Shown: positions 6 to 13,592 of the stretch, in pieces | Layout: the number at the start of each line of letters is the position of its first letter | Position numbering within the stretch: the stretch's first letter is position 1 | Assembly: GCA_011524575.1 (NCBI GenBank) | Contig: WTKB01000004.1 | Span: 1 to 13,612 of the forward strand | Direction: 5' to 3' | DNA from: Aquimarina sp. | GTDB lineage: Bacteria; Bacteroidota; Bacteroidia; Flavobacteriales; Flavobacteriaceae | Length of the DNA: 13,612 nucleotides | Translations under genes and position numbers: made by a program | Notes under the pieces: model-generated | What the model was told of the DNA's origin: nothing | Database searches by the model: none | Seen by the model: only the letters and a program-made list of their open reading frames with translations

Positions 6-713
6 ATGACCTTAACTGACTTAGCTTTTTCTGGTGTTAACCTACCCTTAACTATACTGATTATTATTTTATCAGTTTACCGAATTTTAACCATGTTATC
101 TGGATTAGATTTAGATTTTGATCTAGACTTTGATATAGATACGGATATGGATATTGATACTGATACGGACTTAGGAATAGGTGATGCTGATCTTGAATTT
201 GAGGATTTAGCTAATGCTGAAATTAAAAATAAAGCTATAGTTAGTAAGCGACCTCAAAAACTAAAATGGTGGCAAGTGTTCCTTATTTATTTTAATTTTT
301 CGGAACTGCCATTTTTATTTACGTTTACTTCGTGGATATTCTTTTGGTGGATTATTACACTAATAGGAACCTACTACACAAATAGTTTTAATAATAGCTT
401 AGGTTTTTTCATTTTTTTAGCAGCAATCATACCTGCTTTAATTATCAATAAAATATTTACAACACCTTTTAAAAACTTTTTTCAAAAGCTAGACAGAAAA
501 GGTGTAGACAACATAGATTTAATAGGACGTGTTGGAACTTCATTATCTAATATTTCTAATGACAAATTAGGTAGCATTAAACTATTTGTAGAAAATGATC
601 CTATCAATGTATATGCTAAATCATTAGATGGTAGTAGCATTAAATCAGGAGATAAAATACTTATAATTAAAGAGTCAATAGACAAAAAATTTTATTACAT
701 AAAACTTAATTAA
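6..713 (+). CDS. YqiJ-like inner-membrane protein with NfeD-type OB-fold
   Basis: This is a probable partner of the flotillin encoded next to it, acting in the inner membrane. The 235-residue product has a hydrophobic segment at about residues 12-32, an extraordinary acidic stretch at 35-67, two more membrane segments at about 100-123 and 132-151, and a beta-rich C-terminal domain from about 170 that starts with an L-I-G-R-V-G turn. That layout matches the YqiJ/NfeD-like group, whose C-terminal OB-fold is thought to engage the neighbouring band-7 protein. Residues 35-55 place Asp at every second position, eleven in total, alternating mostly with hydrophobic residues or Thr. The flotillin gene begins 10 bases downstream, as in E. 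coli yqiJ-yqiK. The ATG at 6 leaves a plausible first membrane segment intact, but only five upstream bases are visible, so an earlier start cannot be excluded. Family call is fairly sure; biochemical role is not. Confidence 0.8.
   Translation: MTLTDLAFSGVNLPLTILIIILSVYRILTMLSGLDLDFDLDFDIDTDMDIDTDTDLGIGDADLEFEDLANAEIKNKAIVSKRPQKLKWWQVFLIYFNFSELPFLFTFTSWIFFWWIITLIGTYYTNSFNNSLGFFIFLAAIIPALIINKIFTTPFKNFFQKLDRKGVDNIDLIGRVGTSLSNISNDKLGSIKLFVENDPINVYAKSLDGSSIKSGDKILIIKESIDKKFYYIKLN
108..170 (+). repeat. GAT-rich repeat encoding an alternating-Asp ladder
   Basis: Every second codon from 108 to 170 is GAT or GAC, giving Asp at residues 35, 37, 39 and so on to 55 of the YqiJ-like protein. Intervening codons encode Leu, Phe, Ile, Thr and Met. 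The DNA is an imperfect six-base periodicity, not an exact tandem repeat, so selection on the protein pattern is more likely than recent slippage. It lies between the first and second membrane segments. Confidence 0.8.
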
Positions 714-723
714 ATATAAACAC

Positions 724-2850
724 ATGAGTACAAACTTATTATTCTTAAACTTAATTGACCCATTACAATGGGCTATCCTTATTGTAGGAGGAATTGCTGG
801 AATATTTTTAATATTCTTTATCATAATTGCTTTGTTCTACAAAAAAATTCCTCAAGGTGAGGCCTTAGTAAAAACAGGTTTTGGTGGTACTGCAGTAGCT
901 TTTGATAAAGGAATGTATGTAATCCCAGTATTACATAAAGTAGAAATTATGGACATCTCGGTGAAAAAAATTGAGATCCAAAGAATGCAAACCGATGGTT
1001 TAATTTGTAAAGATAATATGAGAGCCGATATCAAAGTAGCCTTCTTTGTTCGAGTGAACAAATCTAAAGAGGCAATTATCGAGGTAGCTCAAACTATTGG
1101 TTGTGAACGTGCATCACACATAGAAACATTAGAAGAATTATTTGAAGCAAAGTTCTCTGAAGCTTTAAAAACAGTAGGTAAAAAGTTTGAATTTGTTCAG
1201 CTTTATGAATCACGTAGTGAGTTCCGTGATGAAATCATTAATGAAATTGGCCGAGATTTAAACGGATACACTCTTGAAGATTGTGCTATTGATTATTTAG
1301 AGCAAACACCTGTAAATTACCTCAAAGCAGATAACATTTTAGACTCTGAAGGAATTAAAAAAATTACTGAACTAACAGCTGCTCAAAATGTAAAATCCAA
1401 CTTAATTAAACGTGACGAGGAAAAAGTAATTCGTAAACAAGATGTAGAAGCTCGTGAGGCAATTTTAGAATTAGACAAACAATTAGCTGAAAAAGAAGAG
1501 CAACAAAAACGTGAAATTGCCAATATTAAAGCTCGTGAAGAAGCTGAAATCTTAAAAGTTTCTGAAGAAGAACGTTTAAAAGCAGAAGCTGCTCGAATTG
1601 ACACAGAGGAGCGTGTTAAAGTTGCTGAAGAAAACATGGAGCGTCAAATTATTGTGGCTGCTAAAAGTAAACAACGTACCGATGCTGTAGAAACAGAACG
1701 TGTTGAGAAAGACCGCATGTTAGAAGCTACAGAACGTGAGCGTATTGTAACCTTAGCGCAAATTGAAAAAGACAAGGTAGTAGAAGTTGAAAAGAAAAAT
1801 ATACAAGATATTATTCGTGACCGTGTAATGCTTGAAAAAGGTGTAGTTGAAGAACAAGAAAACACCAAGGATATTGAAGCTTTCAAAACTGCAGATCGTG
1901 AAAAACAAGTAAAAATTACTATTGCTGAAGCAAATGCTGAGGAAAACTTAATTAAAACGGTTAAAGAAGCAGAAGCTAAAAAAGAAGCTGCAAAACAAAA
2001 AGCTGAGGAAATAAATATTGAAGCTCAAGCTCAAAAAGAAGCTAGTGAAAAAGAAGCTGAGGCTCGTAAAACTTTAGCGGAAGCTACAGCTAAAGAAGAA
2101 GCTACCATTGGTATGTCTGAAGCTCAAGTAATGCATGCTAAAGCTGAGGCTAGTGAACGTGAAGGTATCGTAGAAGCTGTTGTTATAGAGAAGAAAGCTA
2201 AAGCAGAAGCTGCTGGTATTTTAGCTAAAGCAGAAGCTACTAAAGAACAAGGAATTGCTGAAGCAGAAGTAATCAAAGAAAAGGCATTGGCTCAAGCACA
2301 AGGAGATAAAGAGAAAGCTTTAGCTGAAGCAGCTGGATTAGAAGAGAAGGCAGCAGCAATGAAGAAATTAGATGGTGTAGGTAAAGAACATGAAGAGTTC
2401 AAATTACGTTTAGAAAAAGAATTACAAGTAGAATTAGCTGAAATCAATATTCAAAAAGAAATTGCCGATGCTCAAGCTCAAGTAATTGCCGAAGCATTAA
2501 AGGCTGCTAATATTGATATTGTAGGTGGTGAAACGATGTTCTTTGATCAAATCATTGGTCAAGTAACTAAAGCCAAAGGTTATGATCGTTTGGTACAACA
2601 TTCCAATACAGTTACCGATGTTAAGAATGCTATTTTAGGTAGTGATGATATTAAAGGAAATTTACTTGAGAAAGTAAAGGACTTTGCTACGAAATATGGT
2701 ATATCTAGCGAAGATCTAAAAAACCTATCTATTGCAAACTTATTACATGATTTAAAGTCTAAAACAAGCAATAGCGAAGAGAATATCTTATTCTCGAACT
2801 TAGCCAACTTAGCAAAAGGCCTAGGCATTGAAAATCAAAAGTTGAATTAA
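724..2850 (+). CDS. Flotillin-like band-7 (SPFH/PHB) protein, YqiK family
   Basis: Flotillins oligomerise at the inner membrane and scaffold membrane microdomains. The 708-residue product has one N-terminal membrane segment (about 13-39), then an SPFH/band-7 domain (about 42-215) opening with an I-P-Q-G-E-A-L-V-K strand, and a very long charged helical region (about 225-590) rich in Ala, Glu and Lys, with recurring A-K-A-E-A and A-E-A blocks expected to form a coiled coil. A conserved flotillin-type end follows (D-I-V-G-G-E-T-M-F-F-D-Q-I, about 598-610). About 100 further residues, Ser/Asn/Leu-containing and not coiled-coil-like, extend past this; E. coli YqiK is about 550 residues, so the protein is long for the family. 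The ATG at 724 sits 10 bases after the YqiJ-like stop, indicating co-transcription. A hairpin at 2867-2899 may end or attenuate the unit. The family assignment is secure; the clients are unknown. Confidence 0.93.
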   Translation: MSTNLLFLNLIDPLQWAILIVGGIAGIFLIFFIIIALFYKKIPQGEALVKTGFGGTAVAFDKGMYVIPVLHKVEIMDISVKKIEIQRMQTDGLICKDNMRADIKVAFFVRVNKSKEAIIEVAQTIGCERASHIETLEELFEAKFSEALKTVGKKFEFVQLYESRSEFRDEIINEIGRDLNGYTLEDCAIDYLEQTPVNYLKADNILDSEGIKKITELTAAQNVKSNLIKRDEEKVIRKQDVEAREAILELDKQLAEKEEQQKREIANIKAREEAEILKVSEEERLKAEAARIDTEERVKVAEENMERQIIVAAKSKQRTDAVETERVEKDRMLEATERERIVTLAQIEKDKVVEVEKKNIQDIIRDRVMLEKGVVEEQENTKDIEAFKTADREKQVKITIAEANAEENLIKTVKEAEAKKEAAKQKAEEINIEAQAQKEASEKEAEARKTLAEATAKEEATIGMSEAQVMHAKAEASEREGIVEAVVIEKKAKAEAAGILAKAEATKEQGIAEAEVIKEKALAQAQGDKEKALAEAAGLEEKAAAMKKLDGVGKEHEEFKLRLEKELQVELAEINIQKEIADAQAQVIAEALKAANIDIVGGETMFFDQIIGQVTKAKGYDRLVQHSNTVTDVKNAILGSDDIKGNLLEKVKDFATKYGISSEDLKNLSIANLLHDLKSKTSNSEENILFSNLANLAKGLGIENQKLN

Positions 2851-2866
2851 ACTTTTAAAAAAATTA

Positions 2867-2899
2867 AACCGAGCATTCTTGTAATGAGGGTGCTTGGTT
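2867..2899 (+). terminator. Hairpin after the flotillin gene, possible terminator or attenuator
   Basis: AACCGAGCATTCT (2867-2879) pairs with AGGGTGCTTGGTT (2887-2899) over 13 positions, three of them G-T pairs, around a 7-base loop. An A-rich tract precedes it (2853-2866). The 3' side runs into TTATTC rather than a clean T-tract, so termination may be weak and some transcripts could read on into the small lipoprotein gene that starts 20 bases later. Confidence 0.45.
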
Positions 2900-2919
2900 A
2901 TTCAATCAATAAAATAACT

Positions 2920-3282
2920 ATGAAAAAATTATCAATATTAATAATCAGCTTAATTGGGTTAACACTCTTTAGTTGTAGCTCTGAAAAATATAAGCTTATA
3001 AAAGGTACTTGGGAATGCGGAAGTTGGACTATTGAAGAATCAAACAAAAACAAATGTAATAACAATGTTGTATTTACTTTTGAAAAAAATCAAACATACA
3101 CTTCTAAAATTGGCAATTTAAAACAAGAGGGTAATTATGAAATCATAGGTAATCAATTAATCTGTACTCCTACTGGAAAAATGAAAATTGGTGTTGAAAT
3201 TAATAAACTTACAAGTGACTCACTAAGTTTTACTATGAGTAGGTCTGGACAAAAAGAAACATTGGTCTTACTAAAAAAGTAA
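2920..3282 (+). CDS. Small lipocalin-like lipoprotein
   Basis: This encodes a 120-residue secreted lipoprotein of unknown role. The start is placed at the ATG at 2920, giving a Lys-Lys N-terminus, a hydrophobic core and a lipobox ending L-F-S-C with the lipidated Cys at residue 19. An in-frame ATG at 2884 would add 12 residues before the signal and lies inside the upstream hairpin, so it is disfavoured. The mature part starts K-L-I-K-G-T-W-E-C and continues as short alternating strands with turn residues (T-F-E-K-N-Q-T-Y, G-N-Y-E-I-I-G-N-Q-L), the pattern of the many short lipocalin-like lipoproteins of Bacteroidota. Such proteins often bind small hydrophobic ligands, but no ligand can be inferred here. 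It is separated from the flotillin gene by 69 bases with a hairpin and followed by another hairpin, so it is probably an independent or weakly coupled unit. Confidence 0.8.
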   Translation: MKKLSILIISLIGLTLFSCSSEKYKLIKGTWECGSWTIEESNKNKCNNNVVFTFEKNQTYTSKIGNLKQEGNYEIIGNQLICTPTGKMKIGVEINKLTSDSLSFTMSRSGQKETLVLLKK

Positions 3283-3298
3283 ATTTAGTTTACTTTTT
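3274..3298 (+). terminator. Probable intrinsic terminator of the lipocalin-like gene
   Basis: AAAAAGTAAA (3274-3283) and TTTACTTTTT (3289-3298) form a perfect 10-base-pair stem with a 5-base loop. The stem contains a single G-C pair but its 3' arm ends in a T-run. It overlaps the stop codon (3280-3282), the same layout as the hairpin at the end of the window. Because it is A+T-rich it could be weak. Confidence 0.5.
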
Positions 3299-3571
3299 CT
3301 CCAGTATTAATTAATTTAAAATATGACACTTACCGGATTAAAAATACTCTCAAAACAGTAGATTTTATTTAAAGGTTTAATAATACATACGATAATATTG
3401 ATAAAATAAAATTTTTTAAAATTATTAGCATCCATGTTCCCATTTAAAAAACTTAATACTGGAATCCACGAGAGAAAGAAAAAACTAATTTTTAAAAACC
3501 ACATTAAAAGTTAACAACTGGATTAATCACATTCATTGGATTATTTAAAAACTCACTTCAAAAATTACTTA
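3283..3571. other. Intergenic spacer, no convincing gene; likely promoter region of the seven-gene unit
   Basis: This is the only long non-coding stretch in the window and precedes the compact gene run that starts at 3572, so a promoter probably lies here. I could not find a clear match to the Bacteroidota promoter pattern (TTG near -33 with TAnnTTTG near -7). TAATATTG at 3394-3401 and TAATTTTT at 3486-3493 are partial -7-like matches without a good upstream TTG. An 11-base inverted repeat brackets 3300-3463. A 62-codon reading frame on the minus strand (3316-3504) has no recognisable family and is not called. Confidence 0.5.
3300..3463. repeat. Spaced 11-base inverted repeat bracketing about 140 bases
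   Basis: TCCAGTATTAA at 3300-3310 is matched exactly by its reverse complement TTAATACTGGA at 3453-3463. The enclosed DNA is very A+T-rich and has no gene. It could be the edges of a small degenerate element, a regulatory site pair, or chance in A+T-rich DNA. No flanking target-site duplication is visible, which argues against an intact mobile element. Confidence 0.35.
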
Positions 3572-6500
3572 ATGGAACCTAATACTACTCAGCTTGAATC
3601 CGGAACTTATGAAATTATTCAAAGTAGGCTTAAAAAACATCAAACAGAACTTTTAAACCGATTACAAAATTTAAATAATGCGCGTAAAGAAGTTTATGGA
3701 AGTGTTGAAACAAAACTAATAGCCAACAATCGAATAAACACTGAAAACAGTTGTACTGCTCGTGATATTGTTACAATTAATGAGTTGTGTGTTTTTGGTT
3801 ATAATGTACATTTTGGTTTACGAACTGAAATTAAGCTCACTGATGTTTTTAGTGTATATAAATATGAAGAAGGTCAATTTAAGCCGCAAGACCTAAGTAT
3901 TTTTGAAAATGAAACATTTAAAAATGATTTCTCAAATCTTTATAAATATTATCGTAATACGATTTTTGCAAAATTTGCAATAATAGGAAACTATCTACAT
4001 TTAGTATTTCAGTTAAGTGATAGCATCACCGACATTAAAACATTTAAGTGGTTAATTACAGATGATGGTTTAGAGTATATTGATAACAGAAGTGAACACG
4101 AGTTCAAATTTCCTGACCAACATGATTTTTTATGGCAGGAATTAGGTCGCGATGATCAACGCTACGGAACACATCCTCATGTTTCTATTTTGGATAAAGT
4201 ATTTGTAGAAACTGTTGGCGGTGATTTAACCATTAAAATTGAAGATAATACAGATGATGGTTTAGGCATCTTTAATGAACCTGTTATCCACAAAGATCAA
4301 ACCTTAGATGATGGACAATATCGTTTTGCCGAATTAGGCAATTTAATTGCTATCGAGATTAAACCTTTTCAAGAAACTTCTAGATACTTTGTATACAACC
4401 ATAAAATTAGAGAGGTTAAAAAAATAGAAAGTATTGGAAATGCATGTATACAGTTACCCGAGGAGCAAGGAATTTTGTTTTCAGATGGATATTACCTACA
4501 ATCTGGTTTCTTTAAAAAATATGACTTAGGCTTACAAAACGTTCAATTTAAAAAGAAAGTAAGCTCTCCAAATGGTGAAGACTTCCTTTATGTTTTCTAC
4601 GAAAGTGAACAAGGTCTTTTTGTATTGATGAGCTACAATGTGATTTCTCAAGAGGTAAAAACACCAATTATTTGTAATGGATACACACTATTAGCCAACG
4701 GTGCTTTATGTTATTTTAAAAGTGAGAATGAACAAACCAAACATCATGTAATACAAGTATGGCAAACGCCATTTATTAAAGGAGAAGAAATTCCTAGTGC
4801 ATATACCGATACTTTAATTTATAAAATTGGAAACAAAGACATTGTAAAGGCTATGTCGGAATGTCAAGGCTTAATTACGTTATTAAATAAAGAAGACAGC
4901 TATAATGGTTTGTATGATGATATTGCTAAGTTTTCTTCGGATATTTTAAATAGTTATTACTGGATTTCTGAAAAAGAAACTCAACGTATCGACGAACCTA
5001 TTAATGAAATTAATCAGGCTGCAAATGCTGCTATTGATGAATTTGAAAAAGTAGTACAACTTAAAAAAACAGCACAAAACACAACCTCTGAAACAGATAA
5101 GCTTGCACAAACACTTTTTAATAAAATAAAAAGTAGTTCTTTTAAAAGTATTGATGATTTTGTAGACAAGCTATCACAATTAAGAAGTTTACGTGGTCAA
5201 GTAATTAGTTTGAATGAGGTACGTTATATAGAGCCACAATTTATAAATGACTTAGAATCGGAAATTGTTGAGTATACCGACAAAATTTCTAATCAATGTG
5301 TACAATTCTTATTAAACGACAAAGCACTTGCACCTTACATAGAGCGAGTAACTGAAAAAAAGCAACGACTAGTTTCAATTAAAAAGGTTATTGATGCCAA
5401 AAAACTTGAAAAAGAAATCCAACAAATTGGAACAGATTTAGAGCTTTTAATAGATATTGTTTCGAACCTAGAAATTGAAGATACGTCGCATACCACTCAA
5501 ATTATTGATCGAATTTCATTCATTTTTTCATCATTAAATGAACTAAAAGCCGATGTAAAAAATAGGATTTCAAATTTAGGTAAAGAAGAAGCGCAAGCTG
5601 AATTTGTAGCTCAACTAAAACTGGTGGATCAAAGTATCATCAATTATTTGGATATTGCTAACACACCTGAAAAAACAGATGAGCTATTAAACAAAGTTGC
5701 CATTCAACTTGAAGATTTAGAAGGAAAATTTGCCGATTTTGATGATTACGTAACTCAAATTTTAGAAAAACGTGAAGAAGTTTACAACGCCTTTGAATCC
5801 CGAAAAAATAGCTTACTTGAAGCTAGAAACAAAAAGGCTATTGCTCTTGAAAATGCTGCAAAACGAATTTTAAAAGGGGTAGGTAAAAAAGCCTTAAGCT
5901 TTAGTAATGTTAATGACATCAACGGTTATTTTGCTGGTGACTTAATGATTTCGAAACTCCGTGATATTGTTACTGATTTAAAAAGCCTTGATGATATTGG
6001 TAAAGCTGAAAATATTGAAACAGCACTTAAAGTAGCCAAAGAAGATGCTTTACGAAAATTAAGAGACCAACAAGATCTTTATGAAGATGGTGAAAACATT
6101 ATTAAGCTTGGTAAGCATAAGTTTGGCGTAAACCAACAAGCCTTAGACCTTAGTATTTTATACAAAAATGAGGAATTACAATACCATTTAACAGGAACTG
6201 ATTTTTTTAAGCCCATTGAAAATGAGGTATTGTTAGCATCTAAAAAATATTGGAATCAAGAGTACATATCAGAAAACAAAGAAGTTGCACGTAGCTTTTA
6301 TTTAGCTTATTGCATTTTTAAAGAACTTGAAGCAACCCAACAGATTCTTGATAAAAACGGGAAGTTTATTTCTGCGGAGGCATTAGAAAATCATGTCAAA
6401 AACACAACCAGTAAGAGTTATGCTAGTGGATATGTAAAAGGAGTTCATGATCGTGATGCCCTTAGTATTTTAAACGTATTACTAAAAACACATCATAACC

Positions 6501-8437
6501 TTGGACAATTAACCACCCCACCTCAAATTCGTGGATGGGCACAATTATCTTGGTTTAGTTTATCCATAGAACAACAAACAAAATGGGGTAAAAATTTAAC
6601 CAACTGTAAAGAAATTCTGTCTATTTTCCCCAATAAGGAAAATTTTAAATCAACACTCACGGAGTTATCTCAGGAAATAAAACAAAGTACTTTTGGTTTA
6701 AAACATAATGAAACTGAAAGTTTTTTTATTGCTGTTGCAGAATATATTTTTGAAGTATTTACCTCATCGAAAACTTTTGATGTAGCTCAAACTACCCTTG
6801 AATTAAAAGAGGCATTTGAAAAAAATCTAAAAAAATCAAAGGTAAAAGCACATTTTAAAAATTTAGTTCAGCAAGAGAACACTCCTGAGCAAGTCAAAGA
6901 GATATTACAATGGGTAACAGCTTTTTTATTACAGGAAAAACCAGTATTTATAAATTATGACTTAGAGTTAGTAAGTCTTATTCTATTTGGTAATGCTTTC
7001 GCAGAAGTAAAACATGTGTCACCAAACCAAAAAATAGAAAATTTAAAGAGTGTACACCCTAGTATAAACAATGGAAAATTTGATTTCAATTATCATAATT
7101 TCACACAAAAATTAGCAAAGTTTTCCCAAGAAGATGTTCCTAATTTTGAAGCCTATACCAAGGCAAAACATGAGGTTACCGAAACCTTAAAGAAAAAAGT
7201 TAAACTAGATGAATTTAAACCAAATGTACTTTCATCATTTGTACGTAACAAATTAATTGACCAGGTCTATTTACCGTTATTTGGGGATAATTTGGCTAAG
7301 CAAATTGGAACTGTTGGAGCTAATAAACGTACCGACCGTATGGGAATGTTATTACTAATTTCTCCACCAGGTTACGGAAAAACCACCTTAATGGAGTATA
7401 TGGCTAATCGCTTAGGTTTGGTATTTATGAAAATAAACGGTCCAGCTATTGGTCACGAAGTTACATCGGTAGATCCTGAAGCTGCTAACAATTCAGCAGC
7501 TAAAGAGGAACTTAAAAAGTTAAACTTAGCTTTTGAAATGGGTAATAATGTGATGTTATACTTAGATGATATTCAACATTGTAACCCTGAGTTTTTACAA
7601 AAATTTATTTCTTTAGCCGATGGAACACGTCGTATTGAAGGAGTATATGAAGGAAAACCTAAAACCTATGATTTACGCAGTAAAAAATTCTGTGTAATTA
7701 TGGCGGGAAATCCATATACTGAAAGCGGAGATAAATTTCAAATTCCTGACATGCTATCTAACCGTGCTGACATTTATAATTTAGGAGACATTATTGGAGA
7801 TAGTGCACATTTGTTTAAATTAAGTCTTATTGAAAATGCTTTAACTTCAAACCCTATTTTACAGCAATTAAGTAGTAAAAACTTTGACGACTTATACACT
7901 ATTATTGAAGGAATAGAGAATGGGAATAATGAAAGCTTAAACTTAAAAGGCAACCATACTAACCAAGAACTATCGGAGTACAAATCAGTATTAGAAAAAG
8001 TATTGATAATTAGAGACAGTGTTTTAAAAGTAAACGAAACGTATATTAAATCGGCGGCCATGGAAGATCAGTATAGAACTGAACCTTCATTTAAACTTCA
8101 AGGTTCGTACCGTGACATGAATAAGTTAGTTGCAAAAGTAGTACCTGTAATGAATGAACAAGAATTACAAAGTTTGGTTTTATCTCATTATGAAAATGAA
8201 TCTCAAACTCTTACTACTTCTGCGGAAGCAAACCTTTTAAAGTTTAAAGAGCTAACAGGAATTCTTAGTACACAGGAAAAAGAAAGATGGCAAGCAATTA
8301 AAACTACTTTTGCAAAAAACAATAAATTAAAAGGCTTTGGAGATGCTAATCAAATGAGTTTAGTTTTAGCACAAATGATGCAGTTTAGCGAAAACCTTCA
8401 GGGAATACAAGAAGTATTAAAACACGGATTGAAATAA
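3572..8437 (+). CDS. Giant AAA ATPase with DUF3686-type N-terminus (annotated in databases as 'DNA repair ATPase')
   Basis: This 1,621-residue cytoplasmic protein has a C-terminal AAA module: Walker A S-P-P-G-Y-G-K-T-T (1264-1272, Lys1270), Walker B L-Y-L-D-D-I-Q with Asp1332-Asp1333, sensor-1 Asn1380 in M-A-G-N-P, a candidate arginine finger Arg1398 in S-N-R-A-D, and a candidate sensor-2 Arg1514 in S-Y-R-D-M. The N-terminal about 450 residues are beta-rich and open with Q-L-E-S-G-T-Y-E-I-I, the hallmark of the DUF3686 group. A helical, coiled-coil-prone part (about 465-780) and a mixed domain follow. The ATG at 3572 is chosen because the family opening follows within nine residues; a TTG at 3536 would add 12 residues. 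No nuclease or helicase motif supports a DNA-repair role. It starts the seven-gene run, and its stop is 6 bases before the DUF4178 gene, so remodelling of membrane-associated clients is the better inference. Confidence 0.88.
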   Translation: MEPNTTQLESGTYEIIQSRLKKHQTELLNRLQNLNNARKEVYGSVETKLIANNRINTENSCTARDIVTINELCVFGYNVHFGLRTEIKLTDVFSVYKYEEGQFKPQDLSIFENETFKNDFSNLYKYYRNTIFAKFAIIGNYLHLVFQLSDSITDIKTFKWLITDDGLEYIDNRSEHEFKFPDQHDFLWQELGRDDQRYGTHPHVSILDKVFVETVGGDLTIKIEDNTDDGLGIFNEPVIHKDQTLDDGQYRFAELGNLIAIEIKPFQETSRYFVYNHKIREVKKIESIGNACIQLPEEQGILFSDGYYLQSGFFKKYDLGLQNVQFKKKVSSPNGEDFLYVFYESEQGLFVLMSYNVISQEVKTPIICNGYTLLANGALCYFKSENEQTKHHVIQVWQTPFIKGEEIPSAYTDTLIYKIGNKDIVKAMSECQGLITLLNKEDSYNGLYDDIAKFSSDILNSYYWISEKETQRIDEPINEINQAANAAIDEFEKVVQLKKTAQNTTSETDKLAQTLFNKIKSSSFKSIDDFVDKLSQLRSLRGQVISLNEVRYIEPQFINDLESEIVEYTDKISNQCVQFLLNDKALAPYIERVTEKKQRLVSIKKVIDAKKLEKEIQQIGTDLELLIDIVSNLEIEDTSHTTQIIDRISFIFSSLNELKADVKNRISNLGKEEAQAEFVAQLKLVDQSIINYLDIANTPEKTDELLNKVAIQLEDLEGKFADFDDYVTQILEKREEVYNAFESRKNSLLEARNKKAIALENAAKRILKGVGKKALSFSNVNDINGYFAGDLMISKLRDIVTDLKSLDDIGKAENIETALKVAKEDALRKLRDQQDLYEDGENIIKLGKHKFGVNQQALDLSILYKNEELQYHLTGTDFFKPIENEVLLASKKYWNQEYISENKEVARSFYLAYCIFKELEATQQILDKNGKFISAEALENHVKNTTSKSYASGYVKGVHDRDALSILNVLLKTHHNLGQLTTPPQIRGWAQLSWFSLSIEQQTKWGKNLTNCKEILSIFPNKENFKSTLTELSQEIKQSTFGLKHNETESFFIAVAEYIFEVFTSSKTFDVAQTTLELKEAFEKNLKKSKVKAHFKNLVQQENTPEQVKEILQWVTAFLLQEKPVFINYDLELVSLILFGNAFAEVKHVSPNQKIENLKSVHPSINNGKFDFNYHNFTQKLAKFSQEDVPNFEAYTKAKHEVTETLKKKVKLDEFKPNVLSSFVRNKLIDQVYLPLFGDNLAKQIGTVGANKRTDRMGMLLLISPPGYGKTTLMEYMANRLGLVFMKINGPAIGHEVTSVDPEAANNSAAKEELKKLNLAFEMGNNVMLYLDDIQHCNPEFLQKFISLADGTRRIEGVYEGKPKTYDLRSKKFCVIMAGNPYTESGDKFQIPDMLSNRADIYNLGDIIGDSAHLFKLSLIENALTSNPILQQLSSKNFDDLYTIIEGIENGNNESLNLKGNHTNQELSEYKSVLEKVLIIRDSVLKVNETYIKSAAMEDQYRTEPSFKLQGSYRDMNKLVAKVVPVMNEQELQSLVLSHYENESQTLTTSAEANLLKFKELTGILSTQEKERWQAIKTTFAKNNKLKGFGDANQMSLVLAQMMQFSENLQGIQEVLKHGLK

Positions 8438-8443
8438 AAGAAT

Positions 8444-8995
8444 ATGAAAAGAATTTTTGATAAAATATTTAAAAGTAAACCAGATGAAACCCATTATGAC
8501 CCAACTGATATCAAAATAACTGATATTGAAAATGGTTATTTATTTGATTACGATTTAGAAACTTGGACTGTTACACAAATGTGCGAATATGATTGGGGTA
8601 AAAACTATTTTTCTAGAGAATTTAAAATTATTTCAAAAGGGAAAACTAGATACCTCCATATCGAAGAGGAAGACGATCTTGAAATTACTATTTTTGAAAA
8701 AATTAAATTTAAAGACTTAGACCGTGGTACAAGAAACCACATAAAAACATATATAAAACCTCCAGAGACAATAATTTTCAACAATCAAACTTTTGAACTT
8801 GAAGAAGAAAATCCTGGATATTACAGGGATGTAAAAAATAATGATTGGGAAGAATTAATTTCTTTTGAATATGAATCAGACGATCAAACCTTATTAACTA
8901 TAGAACAATGGGATGAAAATGATATTGAAGTTTATTTTGGTAAAAAACTAAAAGGATTTGAAATCGATAATATTCTCCCAAATTCAAACAATTAG
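8444..8995 (+). CDS. DUF4178 domain protein
   Basis: This is a 183-residue soluble protein with no signal peptide or membrane segment. After a basic N-terminus it has the DUF4178 pattern: D-I-K-I-T-D-I-E-N-G followed by F-D-Y-D-L-E-T-W-T-V, then E-Y-D-W-G and Y-F-S-R-E-F-K (about residues 22-63). A related arrangement seems to recur in the C-terminal half (G-Y-Y-R-D-V, then W-E-E-L-I-S-F-E-Y and I-E-Q-W), suggesting two beta-rich units. The protein is rich in Asp and Glu. DUF4178 has no established biochemical activity; its genes are often found beside DUF350, spermidine-synthase-like and PspA-type genes, and the context here agrees. It lies 6 bases after the AAA gene and 1 base before the lipoprotein start, so co-translation with both is likely. 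The family call is good; the function is unknown. Confidence 0.82.
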   Translation: MKRIFDKIFKSKPDETHYDPTDIKITDIENGYLFDYDLETWTVTQMCEYDWGKNYFSREFKIISKGKTRYLHIEEEDDLEITIFEKIKFKDLDRGTRNHIKTYIKPPETIIFNNQTFELEEENPGYYRDVKNNDWEELISFEYESDDQTLLTIEQWDENDIEVYFGKKLKGFEIDNILPNSNN

Positions 8996-8996
8996 A

Positions 8997-9857
8997 ATGA
9001 ATATAAAATTAAACTTAACTTTTATAGGACTTATTTTACTATTATTCACTTCATGTGGAGAAGAAGAACAAAAAGTCAAATTTGTAAAATCACCAATTGA
9101 TAAGATCATTACTGAATACATTAACTATAATAATTATTCAGTGATTTTGGCCGATATGGACTATAAAGAGGATACTGATAAATATTATCATAAATACAAA
9201 ATCATAGTTCAACGCTACAAAAGAAATTTAAGTAAAGAGGCTCTTAATGACACACTCGATAATGTAAGGGAAGTAAAAATTGATGATACTGATTGGAAAG
9301 AGGTATCTCCTATAGTTTTTGAAGATCATATTAATGATTTAGGGATGACTATTGTTAGTCGAAAAGACGGAGTACTTGAAAAAAACACTGCTCCCGCTGG
9401 TGCAAATAATTATGTAGGAAATCCTAGGTATGGAGAATGGAAAACACATAGTAATGGATCTTCGTTTTGGAGTTTTTATGGTCGATATAGATTTATGAGC
9501 GATATATTCTTTGGCCCAAGTTATGGATATGGTGGTTACTATGGATACCCGAGAACTGTATATTATGATTATCACGGACATTATTATGGAAAAAAAGATT
9601 ACAGACACTCAGGAAACGATTATACGAACTCTGGAGGAAGTTTCTATAGCAAAACTAGGAATAACGGAAGTACTAAATGGGATAAAAAATCTTCAGCATT
9701 TAAAAATATCGTAAACAGAAGAGTTCAAAAAAGTTCTTCAGCATTAAAATCTCGCGGATATACCTCAAGGAAAAGTTACTCTAAAACCTATCGCAATACT
9801 AACCGTTATAGCAGCGGTTATTCTTCTAGATCAACCAGTGGTGGATTTGGAAAATAA
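8997..9857 (+). CDS. Lipoprotein with Tyr/Gly/His-rich segment and Ser/Arg-rich tail ending GGFGK
   Basis: A 286-residue lipoprotein: hydrophobic signal with lipobox L-F-T-S-C (Cys20), then Gly and three Glu. The start is the ATG at 8997, one base after the DUF4178 stop; an in-frame ATG at 8958 would bury the signal behind 13 residues and overlap the previous gene. Residues 30-130 form a mixed globular domain. A short conserved-looking block (N-N-Y-V-G-N-P-R-Y-G-E-W, 137-148) precedes an aromatic region (157-203) dense in Tyr, Gly, Phe and His. The last 85 residues are basic and rich in Ser, Arg, Lys and Tyr, apparently disordered, and end S-G-G-F-G-K. In position it resembles the lipoprotein YjfM beside DUF350 in the E. 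coli yjf cluster, but I claim no homology. The tail could be a modification target or bind polyanions; this is inference. Confidence 0.8.
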   Translation: MNIKLNLTFIGLILLLFTSCGEEEQKVKFVKSPIDKIITEYINYNNYSVILADMDYKEDTDKYYHKYKIIVQRYKRNLSKEALNDTLDNVREVKIDDTDWKEVSPIVFEDHINDLGMTIVSRKDGVLEKNTAPAGANNYVGNPRYGEWKTHSNGSSFWSFYGRYRFMSDIFFGPSYGYGGYYGYPRTVYYDYHGHYYGKKDYRHSGNDYTNSGGSFYSKTRNNGSTKWDKKSSAFKNIVNRRVQKSSSALKSRGYTSRKSYSKTYRNTNRYSSGYSSRSTSGGFGK

Positions 9858-9867
9858 ACTTAAAATT

Positions 9868-10746
9868 ATGGAAAGCTTAATTAATTATTTTGACATTCAG
9901 GAACTAGGGTTAAGTATGTTTTATTTAACCCTGTCTATACTAATTTTTATTGTTGGTAAATTTTTATTTAAACTAACTAACTCTTCAATTAATATAAATC
10001 ATGAAGTAGTAGAAAAAGATAATCTTGCATTTATAATATCTTACGTGGGATACTTTGCTTCTTTAATTATGATTATAATAGGGGCATTAATTGGAGATTC
10101 ACATGGCATTTTAAGTGATACGATTAACATTTTTACTTTTAGTGTTTTAGGAATGTTACTATTACAAATTTCAATATTGATTAACAATAAATTTATATTA
10201 AATAAATTTGATATTAAAAAGGAAATTATTGAAGACAAAAATGCTGGAACGGGTATGATAGAAGCTGCTATTTATATAGGAAATAGCTTCATCCTTTTTG
10301 GCGCAATCAGTGGTGAATCTAACACTATCATTGAAGGAATATTTACTTGTATAATATATTGGTTATTAGGGAATATAGTTATGGTTGTCTCTTGCAAAAT
10401 TTTCATCAAGTGGTTAGGCTATGATATTCATCATGAAATTGAAAAAGATAATGTTGCTGCGGGAACAGCATTTGCAGGTGCTATTGTCGCTATTTGTACT
10501 ATTTTAATGAACGCACTTATAGATCCTTTTGAAAACTGGATCGAAACCATTTTAAATATTTTGATTTATGGTATAATTGGCATCCTAATTTTACCTTTAA
10601 TCAGGTGGTTTTCGGATAAAATTTTAATCATTGGAAGAGATTTAAATGACGAAATATGCAATCAAGAAGTTCCAAATATAGGAGCTGGATTAATTGAGGC
10701 ATTTTCATATATAGGAGCTTCAATTTTAATTATATGCACTTTTTAA
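9868..10746 (+). CDS. Tandem DUF350 (YjfL-type) inner-membrane protein
   Basis: A 292-residue integral membrane protein with about eight hydrophobic segments. E. coli YjfL has one DUF350 unit of roughly 130 residues; this protein has two in series. The odd repeats share E-K-D-N-(L/V)-A (residues 49-54 and 192-197). The even repeats share N-x-G-x-G-x-I-E-A-x-x-Y-I-G (starting at Asn125 as N-A-G-T-G-M-I-E-A, and at Asn270 as N-I-G-A-G-L-I-E-A). The conserved Asn just before each hydrophobic helix is the family's mark. The start is the ATG at 9868, 10 bases after the lipoprotein stop; a GTG at 9838 would overlap that gene. Its 3' end overlaps the next gene by 13 bases, implying coupled translation. 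DUF350 is often found with PspA-type and polyamine-related genes; transport or channel function is only a guess. Confidence 0.85.
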   Translation: MESLINYFDIQELGLSMFYLTLSILIFIVGKFLFKLTNSSININHEVVEKDNLAFIISYVGYFASLIMIIIGALIGDSHGILSDTINIFTFSVLGMLLLQISILINNKFILNKFDIKKEIIEDKNAGTGMIEAAIYIGNSFILFGAISGESNTIIEGIFTCIIYWLLGNIVMVVSCKIFIKWLGYDIHHEIEKDNVAAGTAFAGAIVAICTILMNALIDPFENWIETILNILIYGIIGILILPLIRWFSDKILIIGRDLNDEICNQEVPNIGAGLIEAFSYIGASILIICTF

Positions 10747-12290
10747 AAAACAAATCATTTGTTTTAAAAGCAGCCATATTTGCAACAGGATTTGCTGGGA
10801 TAGTTGCAGAATATGTTTTATCAACATTAGCCACTTACTTTATAGGAAACTCCATATTTCAATGGACTATGATTGTTTCCTTAATGCTATTTTGTATGGG
10901 ACTAGGTAGTAGATTAAGTAAATTAATTAATAAAAACTTAATCCGTAACTTCCTTTTTCTTGAAATCAGTTTATCTCTGGTGGTTGCTTTTTCCTCAATT
11001 TTAGTTTACACTATAGCCGCTTTTTCGTCCAGTTACAACCTACTAATATACACTCTAAGTATGCTTGTAGGTCTTTTAATTGGATTAGAAATTCCTTTAG
11101 TAATTCGAATAAATAATGAATATGATGATTTAAAAACAAACATTTCTTCTATTCTAGAAAAAGACTATTATGGAAGCTTACTGGGTGGGGTTTTCTTTGC
11201 TTTTATTGGGCTACCAGTATTAGGCTTATCTTATACTCCTTTTGTCTTAGGTTTAATAAACTTTTTAGTAGCCTGTTTAGTATTACTTAAATTTAAAGAC
11301 AAGCTTATTGAAAACGGTCAACTAAAGTCTTTAAGCATTTTACTAAGTTTTATCCTATTAATTTTAATTTTTGGTATAGTTAATACAAATTCTGTTATAC
11401 AGTGGGGGGAGCAAAATAAATACCAAGATAAAATAGTCTTCTCAGAACAAACTAAATATCAAAAAATTGTACTTACCGAATGGAAAGATGAACATTGGCT
11501 ATACTTAAATGGAAATCTACAATTTTGTTCTATAGATGAAAAAATGTATCATGAACCATTAGTCCATCCTATTATGCAATTAGCACATCACCCTGAAAAC
11601 ATCTTAGTGTTAGGAGGTGGTGATGGGTGTGCTGTTCGAGAAATCTTAAAATATGATAGCGTAAAAAAAATAGATTTAGTAGACTTAGACCCAAGTATGA
11701 CAAATCTTGGCAAAGAAAACCCTATCCTTATAAACATAAACGAAGGGGCTATGCATAGTAATAAACTTACTATTTATAATGAGGATGGTTTCCACTTTAT
11801 TGAACAAAACACATCTGATTTCTATGATGTTATTATTATAGATTTACCAGACCCAAGAAATGTTGAACTAGGGCGTTTATATTCTCATGAATTTTACACT
11901 CATTGTTATAGAAAATTACGACCAAATGGACTTGTAATTACACAATCAGGAAGTCCTTATTTTGCAACAAAAGCATTTAAATGTATTGATAAAACATTAA
12001 AGTCTGCAAAATTTAACACCGTTCAAATGCATAATCAAATTATCACAATGGGACAATGGGGTTGGACTATTGGGGCTAAAAAAATTACAAGCAAAGAATT
12101 AAAACAACAACTAAAAAACTTAAATTTTAAGGCTCCTACCAAATGGATTAACCATGAAGCAATGCAGTTACTAACCTCTTTTGGAAAAGAGGATTACTTT
12201 ACAGATTCGTCAAATGAAATAAGAGTAAATAAAATTCACGACCCTGTATTATATCAATATTATCTAAAAGGTAATTGGGATCTATATTAA
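10734..12290 (+). CDS. Membrane-fused spermidine-synthase-like aminopropyltransferase (SpeE family)
   Basis: Members of this family transfer an aminopropyl group from decarboxylated SAM to an amine acceptor such as putrescine. The 518-residue product has about seven membrane segments in residues 11-220, then a cytosolic spermidine-synthase fold. The catalytic signature is intact: N-G-N-L-Q (259-263), D-E-x-x-Y-H-E (268-274), G-G-G-D-G (294-298), the acidic ribose-binding V-D-L-D (316-319), Asp351 in E-D-G, the D-L-P-D-P pair Asp370 and Asp373, and G-Q-W-G-W (440-444). All usual aspartates are therefore retained, and activity is likely. Soluble SpeE is about 280-300 residues, so the membrane half is an addition, though fused forms are known. 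The start overlaps the DUF350 stop by 13 bases, and the SpeD gene, able to supply its co-substrate, begins 5 bases downstream. The acceptor could be putrescine or a membrane or protein amine; the sequence does not decide. Confidence 0.9.
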   Translation: MHFLKNKSFVLKAAIFATGFAGIVAEYVLSTLATYFIGNSIFQWTMIVSLMLFCMGLGSRLSKLINKNLIRNFLFLEISLSLVVAFSSILVYTIAAFSSSYNLLIYTLSMLVGLLIGLEIPLVIRINNEYDDLKTNISSILEKDYYGSLLGGVFFAFIGLPVLGLSYTPFVLGLINFLVACLVLLKFKDKLIENGQLKSLSILLSFILLILIFGIVNTNSVIQWGEQNKYQDKIVFSEQTKYQKIVLTEWKDEHWLYLNGNLQFCSIDEKMYHEPLVHPIMQLAHHPENILVLGGGDGCAVREILKYDSVKKIDLVDLDPSMTNLGKENPILININEGAMHSNKLTIYNEDGFHFIEQNTSDFYDVIIIDLPDPRNVELGRLYSHEFYTHCYRKLRPNGLVITQSGSPYFATKAFKCIDKTLKSAKFNTVQMHNQIITMGQWGWTIGAKKITSKELKQQLKNLNFKAPTKWINHEAMQLLTSFGKEDYFTDSSNEIRVNKIHDPVLYQYYLKGNWDLY

Positions 12291-12295
12291 GAATT

Positions 12296-12607
12296 ATGAA
12301 TGAAAACTATGTAAATGTTGAGGCTAAAATCTATAATCTTAAATTTTGGATTAGTGAGTGTAATCCAAAATTCTTAAGGGATTTTTTTCAAGACAAGTTA
12401 ACTAAAGTGAAATTTAACATTTTGCTTTTTAACGAGTATCATTTCCCTGAAAAGGGTTATACGTGTTTTTGGTTACTAGCCGAAAGTCATTTAGCAATTC
12501 ACACATTCCCAGAAAGTAATAAAACTTATATTGAGCTTAGTAGTTGTAACAAAGAAAAGCTTGATTTGTTTAATGAAATAGTAAAAGACAATGTACAAAA
12601 AATTTAG
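12296..12607 (+). CDS. speD: Minimal S-adenosylmethionine decarboxylase (SpeD family, pyruvoyl type)
   Basis: The SpeD family decarboxylates S-adenosylmethionine, supplying the aminopropyl donor for the synthase encoded just upstream. The 103-residue product carries the autoprocessing site A-E-S-H-L-A-I-H-T-F-P-E (62-73): cleavage would fall between Glu63 and Ser64, with Ser64 becoming the pyruvoyl group. His69 and Cys84 match the processing His and the proton-donor Cys. Their spacing from Ser64 (+5 and +20) equals that of Thermotoga maritima SpeD (Ser63, His68, Cys83, from memory). Thr56 stands where that enzyme has Ser55, and Phe71 replaces Trp70. The C-terminus ends about 20 residues early for the class. 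The ATG at 12296 is preferred over a TTG at 12275 inside the preceding gene. The last 17 bases overlap the channel gene. Activity is likely but the short tail leaves doubt. Confidence 0.85.
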   Translation: MNENYVNVEAKIYNLKFWISECNPKFLRDFFQDKLTKVKFNILLFNEYHFPEKGYTCFWLLAESHLAIHTFPESNKTYIELSSCNKEKLDLFNEIVKDNVQKI

Positions 12608-13592
12608 AGTTACTTTGTTCATAATAGGTGTTATTACCTATAACCTCTGTGTTTATTTTATCTACATTGCTGAATTAAACAAAGCGAATGCTAACATTAA
12701 TAATATTGCTGATGCTTATTGGTACTCACTAGTAACTTTAACAACAGTTGGGTATGGTGACTTTTATCCTGTAAGTTTTTGGGGGCGACTTATAGGATTT
12801 GTTTTTGTGATTGGAAGCCTAGGAATTTTAAGTTACCTAATCACAGAATTAAATCAAAAATTTAAAAACTTTTTACATAAAAAAGAAATGGGACATTTGG
12901 GAACAGATATGGAAAATCATTGTGTAATTATTGGTTGGAATGATTTTTCTAAAAAAGTAGTATCACAACTTATCAATTCAGGAGAGCAAATATGTATAAT
13001 GGTTGATGATCAATCAAAAATAGAAGCTATTAGGCAACAGTTTAAAACTAAAAAATGTTTTGTTATTTTAAGCGATTTCACGGATTTCCAAAACCTTAAT
13101 AAAATTAATATCACTAAATCTAAAAGAACTTATATAAATTTTGAAAATGACAATGAAGTTTTAGTTTATTGTATTAGCTTAAAAAAACACTTCCCTAATA
13201 TTAATTGTGTGGTTACTATAGATAATATAGAACTTAAAGAATCTTTTCAATTTATAGGTATTAAATACATTATTCCTAAATCCGAAGTGATTTCAAAATT
13301 TGTTGCAAGTTATATTTTTGAACCTTCTGTAGCATTACTTACTGATGACTTAATTACTACCTCAAATAGTCAAGATAACCTAGACATACATCAGAAGAAA
13401 ATCACAAAAGAAAACGCTTTAGTAAATCAAAAATTTAACGAAGCATATATTACTCAAAAAGCAAAGTATAACAATATTCTTATTGCAATTCATCGTGGCG
13501 ATAGTCTTATCAAAAACCCTGATAATAATGAAGTAATAAAAGAGAACGATATATTATTATTTATATCTAATTACAATAGTCAAATAGACTAA
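12591..13592 (+). CDS. Two-transmembrane RCK potassium channel (MthK-like)
   Basis: This encodes a 333-residue inner-membrane K+ channel subunit that should assemble as a tetramer. It has TM1 (about 7-27), a pore helix and the selectivity filter T-T-V-G-Y-G-D (51-57), TM2 (about 64-86), a basic linker, an RCK/TrkA-N Rossmann domain (about 110-230) and a TrkA-C domain (about 262-328). The Rossmann turn reads V-I-I-G-W-N-D-F-S (112-120), lacking the later glycines of the NAD-binding G-x-G-x-x-G motif; MthK, gated by calcium, has a similar G-W-S turn, so ion gating is more likely than NAD gating. Asp139 and Asp140 end the second strand, where RCK domains often carry acidic ligand residues. The start overlaps the speD end by 17 bases, and a hairpin at the stop closes the unit. 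Polyamines are known blockers of some K+ channels, which makes the neighbourhood suggestive, though no regulatory link is shown. Confidence 0.92.
   Translation: MYKKFRVTLFIIGVITYNLCVYFIYIAELNKANANINNIADAYWYSLVTLTTVGYGDFYPVSFWGRLIGFVFVIGSLGILSYLITELNQKFKNFLHKKEMGHLGTDMENHCVIIGWNDFSKKVVSQLINSGEQICIMVDDQSKIEAIRQQFKTKKCFVILSDFTDFQNLNKINITKSKRTYINFENDNEVLVYCISLKKHFPNINCVVTIDNIELKESFQFIGIKYIIPKSEVISKFVASYIFEPSVALLTDDLITTSNSQDNLDIHQKKITKENALVNQKFNEAYITQKAKYNNILIAIHRGDSLIKNPDNNEVIKENDILLFISNYNSQID

Follow-up and report, generated by a model that had tools for sequence, protein, structure and literature searches.

We find that this locus is probably an envelope-stress operon of the PspA type, made up of two known gene cassettes in tandem. 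The first, module A, comprises a YqiJ-like protein, a flotillin and a DUF3686 AAA+ ATPase; the second, module B, comprises a DUF4178 protein, a lipoprotein, a DUF350 protein, a membrane aminopropyltransferase, a SpeD-like decarboxylase and a K+ channel. Both the individual parts and their link to stress have been described before, and the joined A-B form is a variant of known modules.

Gene layout of the window

The stretch of DNA analysed here (the window) makes up an entire contig of 13,612 bases within a draft genome of 2.09 Mb that is 89.3% complete (G000), so both of its ends are assembly ends: only 5 bases precede the start of yqiJ, and 20 follow the channel gene. All ten open reading frames lie on the + strand and together span positions 6 to 13592 (Table 1). 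By their listed coordinates, YqiJ and flotillin are 10 bases apart, flotillin and the lipocalin-like gene 33, the lipocalin-like gene and the AAA gene 253, and AAA and DUF4178 6, while the remainder overlap. With the likelier ATG starts given in Table 1 for the AAA, lipoprotein, DUF350 and SpeD genes, picked from comparison with relatives together with the positions of ATG codons, neighbours in the seven-gene run that begins with AAA and ends with the K+ channel are at most 10 bases apart or overlap by at most 17, in line with an earlier note on this DNA that had described ten same-strand genes, seven of them packed. A scan of positions 2700-3700 yielded no terminator-like site, and its 9 promoter-like matches were not far above the 5.5 obtained in shuffles (sd 2.0). 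The other sampled genomes of the genus are mostly 4-7 Mb in size, and the genome of the window is possibly a reduced one.

Table 1. Genes of the window, with their positions, strand and the basis of each assignment.
Feature	Positions	Strand	Basis
YqiJ-like membrane protein, module A gene 1	6..713	+	Family of 14 aligned members, YqiJ_N in 6/14
Flotillin (SPFH/band-7 type, long coiled coil), module A	724..2850	+	Identity to relatives; Band_7 in 2/14
Small Lipocalin_4 gene, lipoprotein-like start	2884..3282	+	PF13648
DUF3686-DUF7902-AAA+ ATPase, 1633 aa, module A	3572..8437	+	Pfam; ORF opens at TTG 3536, likely start ATG 3572
DUF4178 protein, module B gene 1	8444..8995	+	PF13785
Lipoprotein, conserved core, C-terminal tail basic and Ser/Arg/Tyr/Lys-rich	8997..9857	+	Lipobox-like start; ORF opens at TTG 8958, likelier start ATG 8997
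DUF350 (YjfL type, two repeats) membrane protein	9868..10746	+	PF03994, two stretches; ORF opens at GTG 9838, likelier start ATG 9868
Aminopropyltransferase domain with N-terminal membrane domain	10734..12290	+	Spermine_synth; NF002956, 569.9 bits (cut-off 472)
SpeD-like pyruvoyl decarboxylase	12296..12607	+	PF02675 (AdoMet_dc); ORF opens at TTG 12275, likelier start ATG 12296
Two-helix K+ channel, cytoplasmic TrkA_N part	12591..13592	+	PF07885 (Ion_trans_2) and PF02254 over cut-off

Genes of modules A and B

No Pfam model matched the window's own flotillin or YqiJ-like protein, and both are identified through their families; the flotillin is 52-82% identical to 13 relatives. The ATPase, 67-71% identical to its relatives in the genus, carries DUF3686 at residues 38-475 and the AAA domain at residues 1272-1392. 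Its Walker A residues, both Walker B aspartates and the sensor asparagine are conserved in 94 of 94 rows. By profile, the small lipocalin-like gene has no counterpart in any of the 144 other loci examined, the window being the only one to carry it; in two members of the genus (L132, L138), different small open reading frames occupy the gap between flotillin and ATPase.

In relatives, module B runs in the order DUF4178, lipoprotein, DUF350, aminopropyltransferase and SpeD, frequently with the K+ channel added, and in some loci SpeD and the channel are placed first, or DUF350 or the lipoprotein is undetected. An AlphaFold2 model of the DUF350 protein contains helices only (mean pLDDT 90.4). The lipoprotein, which has no Pfam family over cut-off in the 11 members aligned, ends in a tail with 19 lysines and arginines against 2 aspartates and glutamates in 85 residues. 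SpeD scores below the TIGR03330 cut-off; the pyruvoyl serine of its ESH motif, a histidine and a cysteine are conserved in 51 of 51 rows. The channel has a TrkA_C match below cut-off and retains, in 15 of 15 rows, the K+ filter motif TVGYGD.

The structure model of the aminopropyltransferase consists of helices up to residue 230, followed by a transferase fold, and this C-terminal half folds like solved spermidine synthases (Foldseek, best E 9.9e-17, best match Pyrobaculum SpeE, 7xif). Residues Y272, D297, D351, D370, D373 and Q404 are conserved in 36 of 36 rows of the window's type (two of them duplicates), and the donor-site and catalytic residues are likewise conserved in 24 of 24 rows of a second type that is distinguished by context and tree. 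D317 sits where soluble enzymes have a glutamate. The enzyme is probably catalytically active. The loop that follows the catalytic aspartates (D-x-x-D) is conserved in a form of the family's own, unlike two of the three solved enzymes aligned and like the third, the soluble Pyrobaculum SpeE, and because of this resemblance the loop is weak evidence for another acceptor.

Loci of the second type (L047-L070), seen in other genomes of the order, open with SpeD; L051, the locus scanned for domains, continues with a longer DUF4178-domain protein, a DUF350 protein of 71 residues, a different 7TM aminopropyltransferase and an FAD amine-oxidase-like gene. By profile, the stretches examined of these loci contain no PspA. 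Additionally, four loci (L023:13174-18844, L152, L153 and L154) carry two aminopropyltransferase genes tail to tail around an FAD amine-oxidase-like gene, with the two copies falling in separate clades of the tree (Pfam checked in L154).

The seam between the modules

We compared the window with 144 further loci (three duplicates among them), scanned with profiles built from the genes of the window and its neighbours, and with evenly drawn, non-independent samples of 296 genomes from the order, 299 from the family and 45 from the genus. Flotillin stands before the ATPase in all 92 loci that hold both, including records from Verrucomicrobia and Clostridiaceae (L007, L009), so the ATPase gene is a partner of flotillin rather than of the other genes in the seven-gene run. 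The earlier note had divided the locus into a flotillin pair and a seven-gene run; the seam lies instead between AAA and DUF4178.

Within one genus, L074 reads CesT-PspA-DUF4178 onwards, while L019-L022 read CesT-PspA-YqiJ-flotillin-AAA-DUF4178 onwards, and both L074 and L020 are flanked by an HTH gene before and an asparaginase-like gene after (by Pfam in L020, by eye in L074). Module A thus behaves as a cassette placed between pspA and module B. The full joined order is seen in L121, where a divergent HTH gene is followed by the complete series (CesT-PspA-YqiJ-flotillin-AAA-DUF4178-lipoprotein-DUF350-aminopropyltransferase-SpeD-K+ channel), with a small YbjQ gene between AAA and DUF4178. Such YbjQ_1 genes occur between PspA and YqiJ or between ATPase and DUF4178 in three loci (L006:5634-5951, L016:3196-3513, L121:12590-12907; PF01906 in L006 and L121, by eye in L016).

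How often the modules occur together and adjoin

In the order sample, 31 of the 296 genomes carry the DUF3686 gene of module A, and 41 carry a full-length aminopropyltransferase over cut-off, 17 of the window's type and 24 of the second. Both module A and the window-type module B are present in ten genomes, against 1.8 expected with ancestry ignored. The idea that these gene families recur together is borne out to this extent, but their association is not obligatory: 21 of the 31 genomes with module A lack window-type B, and 7 of the 17 with window-type B lack A. The modules are adjacent in six of the ten genomes holding both, against 0.09 expected for a distance of 15 kb and the sizes of the genomes, again with ancestry ignored, as it is in the p-values. 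These six are G000, G059, G067, G105, G283 and G164, the last with its ATPase gene split over two contig ends (L018, L073); in the other four, the modules lie within about 10 kb in another layout (G025) or apart (three genomes).

In the family sample, DUF3686 was found in 25 of the 299 genomes. Apart from the window, 24 such regions were examined, a few of them truncated at contig ends; A and B adjoin in three of these, namely L117, L121 and, as far as DUF4178, L120. Module A is present in 32 of the 45 genus genomes; in the ten that also have B, the two are joined in three (G000, G300, G302) and apart in six, with G330 in neither group. L008 is a further joined locus. On one contig, module B comes immediately after a GH16 gene that has a secretion-sorting domain at its C-terminus (L149:7488-8984), and B therefore does not adjoin A there. 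The earlier note had set frequent independent occurrence, with no adjacency in relatives, against its own single-system idea; independent occurrence is indeed common and adjacency in the genus is found in only three of ten genomes, but adjacency in the order far exceeds expectation.

The joined state is scattered on both gene trees. On the ATPase tree it needs at least six changes (72 of 77 rows counted, gains and losses taken alike; 17 of 28 genus loci omitted for thinning and rows under 1400 residues dropped), and on the aminopropyltransferase tree at least four (32 of 39 rows counted, gains and losses again taken alike; 20 second-type rows omitted). A single clade of the 11 joined rows on the latter tree is rejected (AU p 1.5e-5).

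PspA at the head of the modules

The head of the locus in relatives consists of an HTH regulator pointing away, followed by a CesT/Tir-like gene, PspA and then YqiJ, with CesT_Tir_1 matched in 16 of 16 scanned head genes. PspA lies within 2.2 kb upstream of YqiJ in 81 of the 92 loci. Of the remaining 11, the sequence upstream is too short in the window and L098, and L008 starts at a contig end. The other eight (L007, L009, L035, L104, L105, L106, L107, L111) carry YqiJ without a PspA gene in the preceding 2.2 kb despite 2.4 to 6.7 kb of upstream sequence, so that PspA-less forms exist. In L035:3212-4671, from a genome listed as 100% complete (G237), the HTH gene directly precedes YqiJ and the rest of module A is kept; no CesT/Tir-PspA is present at this locus and no PspA over cut-off in the genome, indicating that true loss of PspA occurs.

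Across the order sample, PspA was detected over cut-off in 34 of 296 genomes, by a search that was positive in 9 of 14 control genomes, and all 34 carry A or window-type B. Put the other way, among the 38 genomes that carry A or window-type B, PspA is present in all but four (G000, G017, G111 and G237), versus none of the 258 others. In the sequence examined, it does not adjoin the module in three of the 34, lying on another contig than B in G001 and G029 and on another contig than A in G243. Similarly, 32 of the 45 genus genomes have PspA over cut-off, corresponding to 32 of 33 with A or window-type B versus none of 12 others, and the one exception is the genome of the window. These counts uphold the link to PspA-type envelope-stress genes that the earlier note had drawn. 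Module B loci with both CesT/Tir and PspA include L072, L074, L079, L151 and L155, and L152 and L154 have PspA alone; in 10 of 16 stand-alone B loci, some of them cut by contig ends, the stretch examined holds no PspA.

Neither PspA nor CesT/Tir was found in the window or on any other contig of its genome, 89.3% complete. The contig starts 5 bases before yqiJ, and the head may thus have been cut off; we regard truncation of the contig as considerably likelier than loss.

Relation to described systems

Both modules, and their reading in terms of membrane stress, are already in print (PMC11237479, 2024). That work describes a first group in which CesT/Tir-PspA is accompanied by YqiJ, flotillin and an AAA+ ATPase bearing a beta-propeller and a coiled coil. 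Module A agrees with it in the YqiJ and band-7/flotillin pair, judged by family, in an AAA+ ATPase whose N-terminal portion is large (DUF3686 and AAA domains), and in the CesT/Tir-PspA head of the window's relatives; from the wording of that paper, we infer that DUF3686 is the beta-propeller. It differs in that module A of the window runs directly into module B and that the head is unseen in the window and its assembly.

A second group in PMC11237479 combines CesT/Tir-PspA with a 7TM spermine-synthase-like protein, DUF350, a lipoprotein and DUF4178. The window's module B has the same four gene kinds, with the spermine-synthase-like domain fused to an N-terminal membrane domain (by NF002956 and the structure model) and DUF350, DUF4178 and lipoprotein neighbours; judging by its position, and with no match to a model of the Ctha_1186 domain, the lipoprotein is probably the Ctha_1186 lipoprotein of that paper. 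Unlike this group, the window has no RHH regulator, adds SpeD and a K+ channel, and is preceded by module A. The third group brings together CesT/Tir-PspA, an ATP-grasp protein, a K+ channel and DUF350, with SpeD (AdoMet decarboxylase) in variants. The window shares a K+ channel with a sensing part, DUF350 and SpeD, and contains no match to the ATP-grasp ligase, DUF1190 or DUF2491. Membrane remodelling is proposed in PMC11237479, which also mentions aminopropylation of other substrates.

PMC9239133 likewise notes that in Bacteroidota band-7 genes can neighbour pspA. A shorter relative of the third group is the E. coli yjfIJKL operon, which PMC12492005 describes as strongly expressed in heat-evolved strains. 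According to PMC10948618, mutants of the P. aeruginosa bac cluster (pa3732-pa3729) have biofilm and rhamnolipid defects, and a DUF2170 gene (YjfI, CesT/Tir-like according to PMC11237479) together with PspA heads this four-gene cluster; unlike the window, it has by the authors' account no spermidine-synthase-like gene in or around it. In the literature searched, we found no description of the A-B tandem, its recurrence or the cassette relation.

Possible function of the joined locus

In the envelope-stress operon that we favour, PspA would coat the damaged inner membrane in an ESCRT-III-like manner, flotillin and YqiJ would mark or organise the damaged site, and the AAA+ ATPase would remodel or disassemble PspA or flotillin assemblies. 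SpeD would supply decarboxylated AdoMet, whose aminopropyl group the membrane aminopropyltransferase could transfer to a membrane-associated or membrane-embedded acceptor, and DUF350, the lipoprotein and the ligand-sensing K+ channel may adjust or sense the state of the envelope.

That the locus forms a single system is a plausible idea, and it has more support than adjacency by chance. Alternatively, A and B could be two independent neighbouring operons, brought together by a shared insertion site or by compaction of a 2.1 Mb genome rather than by joint action. Consistent with independence, each module often occurs without the other in the order sample, the two usually lie apart in the genus, the B module of L151 has its own HTH-CesT-PspA head, and 412-1103 bases separate A from B in six loci (L006, L008, L016, L117, L120, L121). 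Against this, the adjacency in six of ten order genomes falls in at least two separate lineages, the AAA-DUF4178 spacing is only -14 to +6 bases in the window and L019-L022, and no joined locus examined has a PspA gene between AAA and DUF4178; we consider two independent operons unlikely.

It is also conceivable, and to us less likely still, that SpeD and the aminopropyltransferase simply make spermidine or another polyamine and that their company is incidental. NF002956, whose cut-off the window's enzyme passes, is named for polyamine aminopropyltransferases, the SpeD and donor-site residues are conserved, and the loop after the D-x-x-D motif resembles that of the soluble Pyrobaculum SpeE, which is the best Foldseek match as well. 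Such a role sits poorly with the fusion to a membrane domain, with a loop that lacks the form of the other two solved enzymes aligned, and with PspA, DUF350 and DUF4178 as frequent neighbours. Li and colleagues, in a 2019 study of SpeD in the absence of spermidine, reportedly found that such fusions do not replace spermidine synthase. An anti-phage role appears very improbable. PADLOC matched the transferase domain weakly to mad2 and the AAA core weakly to mad8 and IetA, but these matches reflect shared folds only; no other part of those systems was matched in the window, and the MADS mad gene set is represented there by fold-level matches to mad2 and mad8 alone. The modules also keep the same neighbours across many genera, and a comparison of the ATPase with 50,697 phage records gave no match at E 1e-5.

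Returning to the envelope-stress operon, one speculative extension, which we hold to be rather improbable, is that the aminopropyltransferase modifies a membrane-resident acceptor, either the head group of an amino-lipid or a lysine on a partner that is itself a membrane protein or lipoprotein. The inner membrane would thereby become more cationic where PspA and flotillin gather, and the joined locus would be one repair device. The enzyme recalls MprF in its layout of a membrane domain and a cytoplasmic transferase; MprF puts lysine on phosphatidylglycerol. If this were true, PspA and flotillin would hold the damaged site and the AAA+ ATPase would recycle them, while aminopropyl chemistry and K+ flow would restore the bilayer and its potential.

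Two modules known separately from the literature form a single uninterrupted run in several lineages, and one genus has the flotillin-ATPase cassette exactly between pspA and the aminopropyltransferase cassette. This supports a shared job, and natural pairs of loci with and without each cassette are available for testing what it contributes. Should the aminopropyltransferase act on the membrane itself, stress responses would include a membrane chemistry of a new kind.
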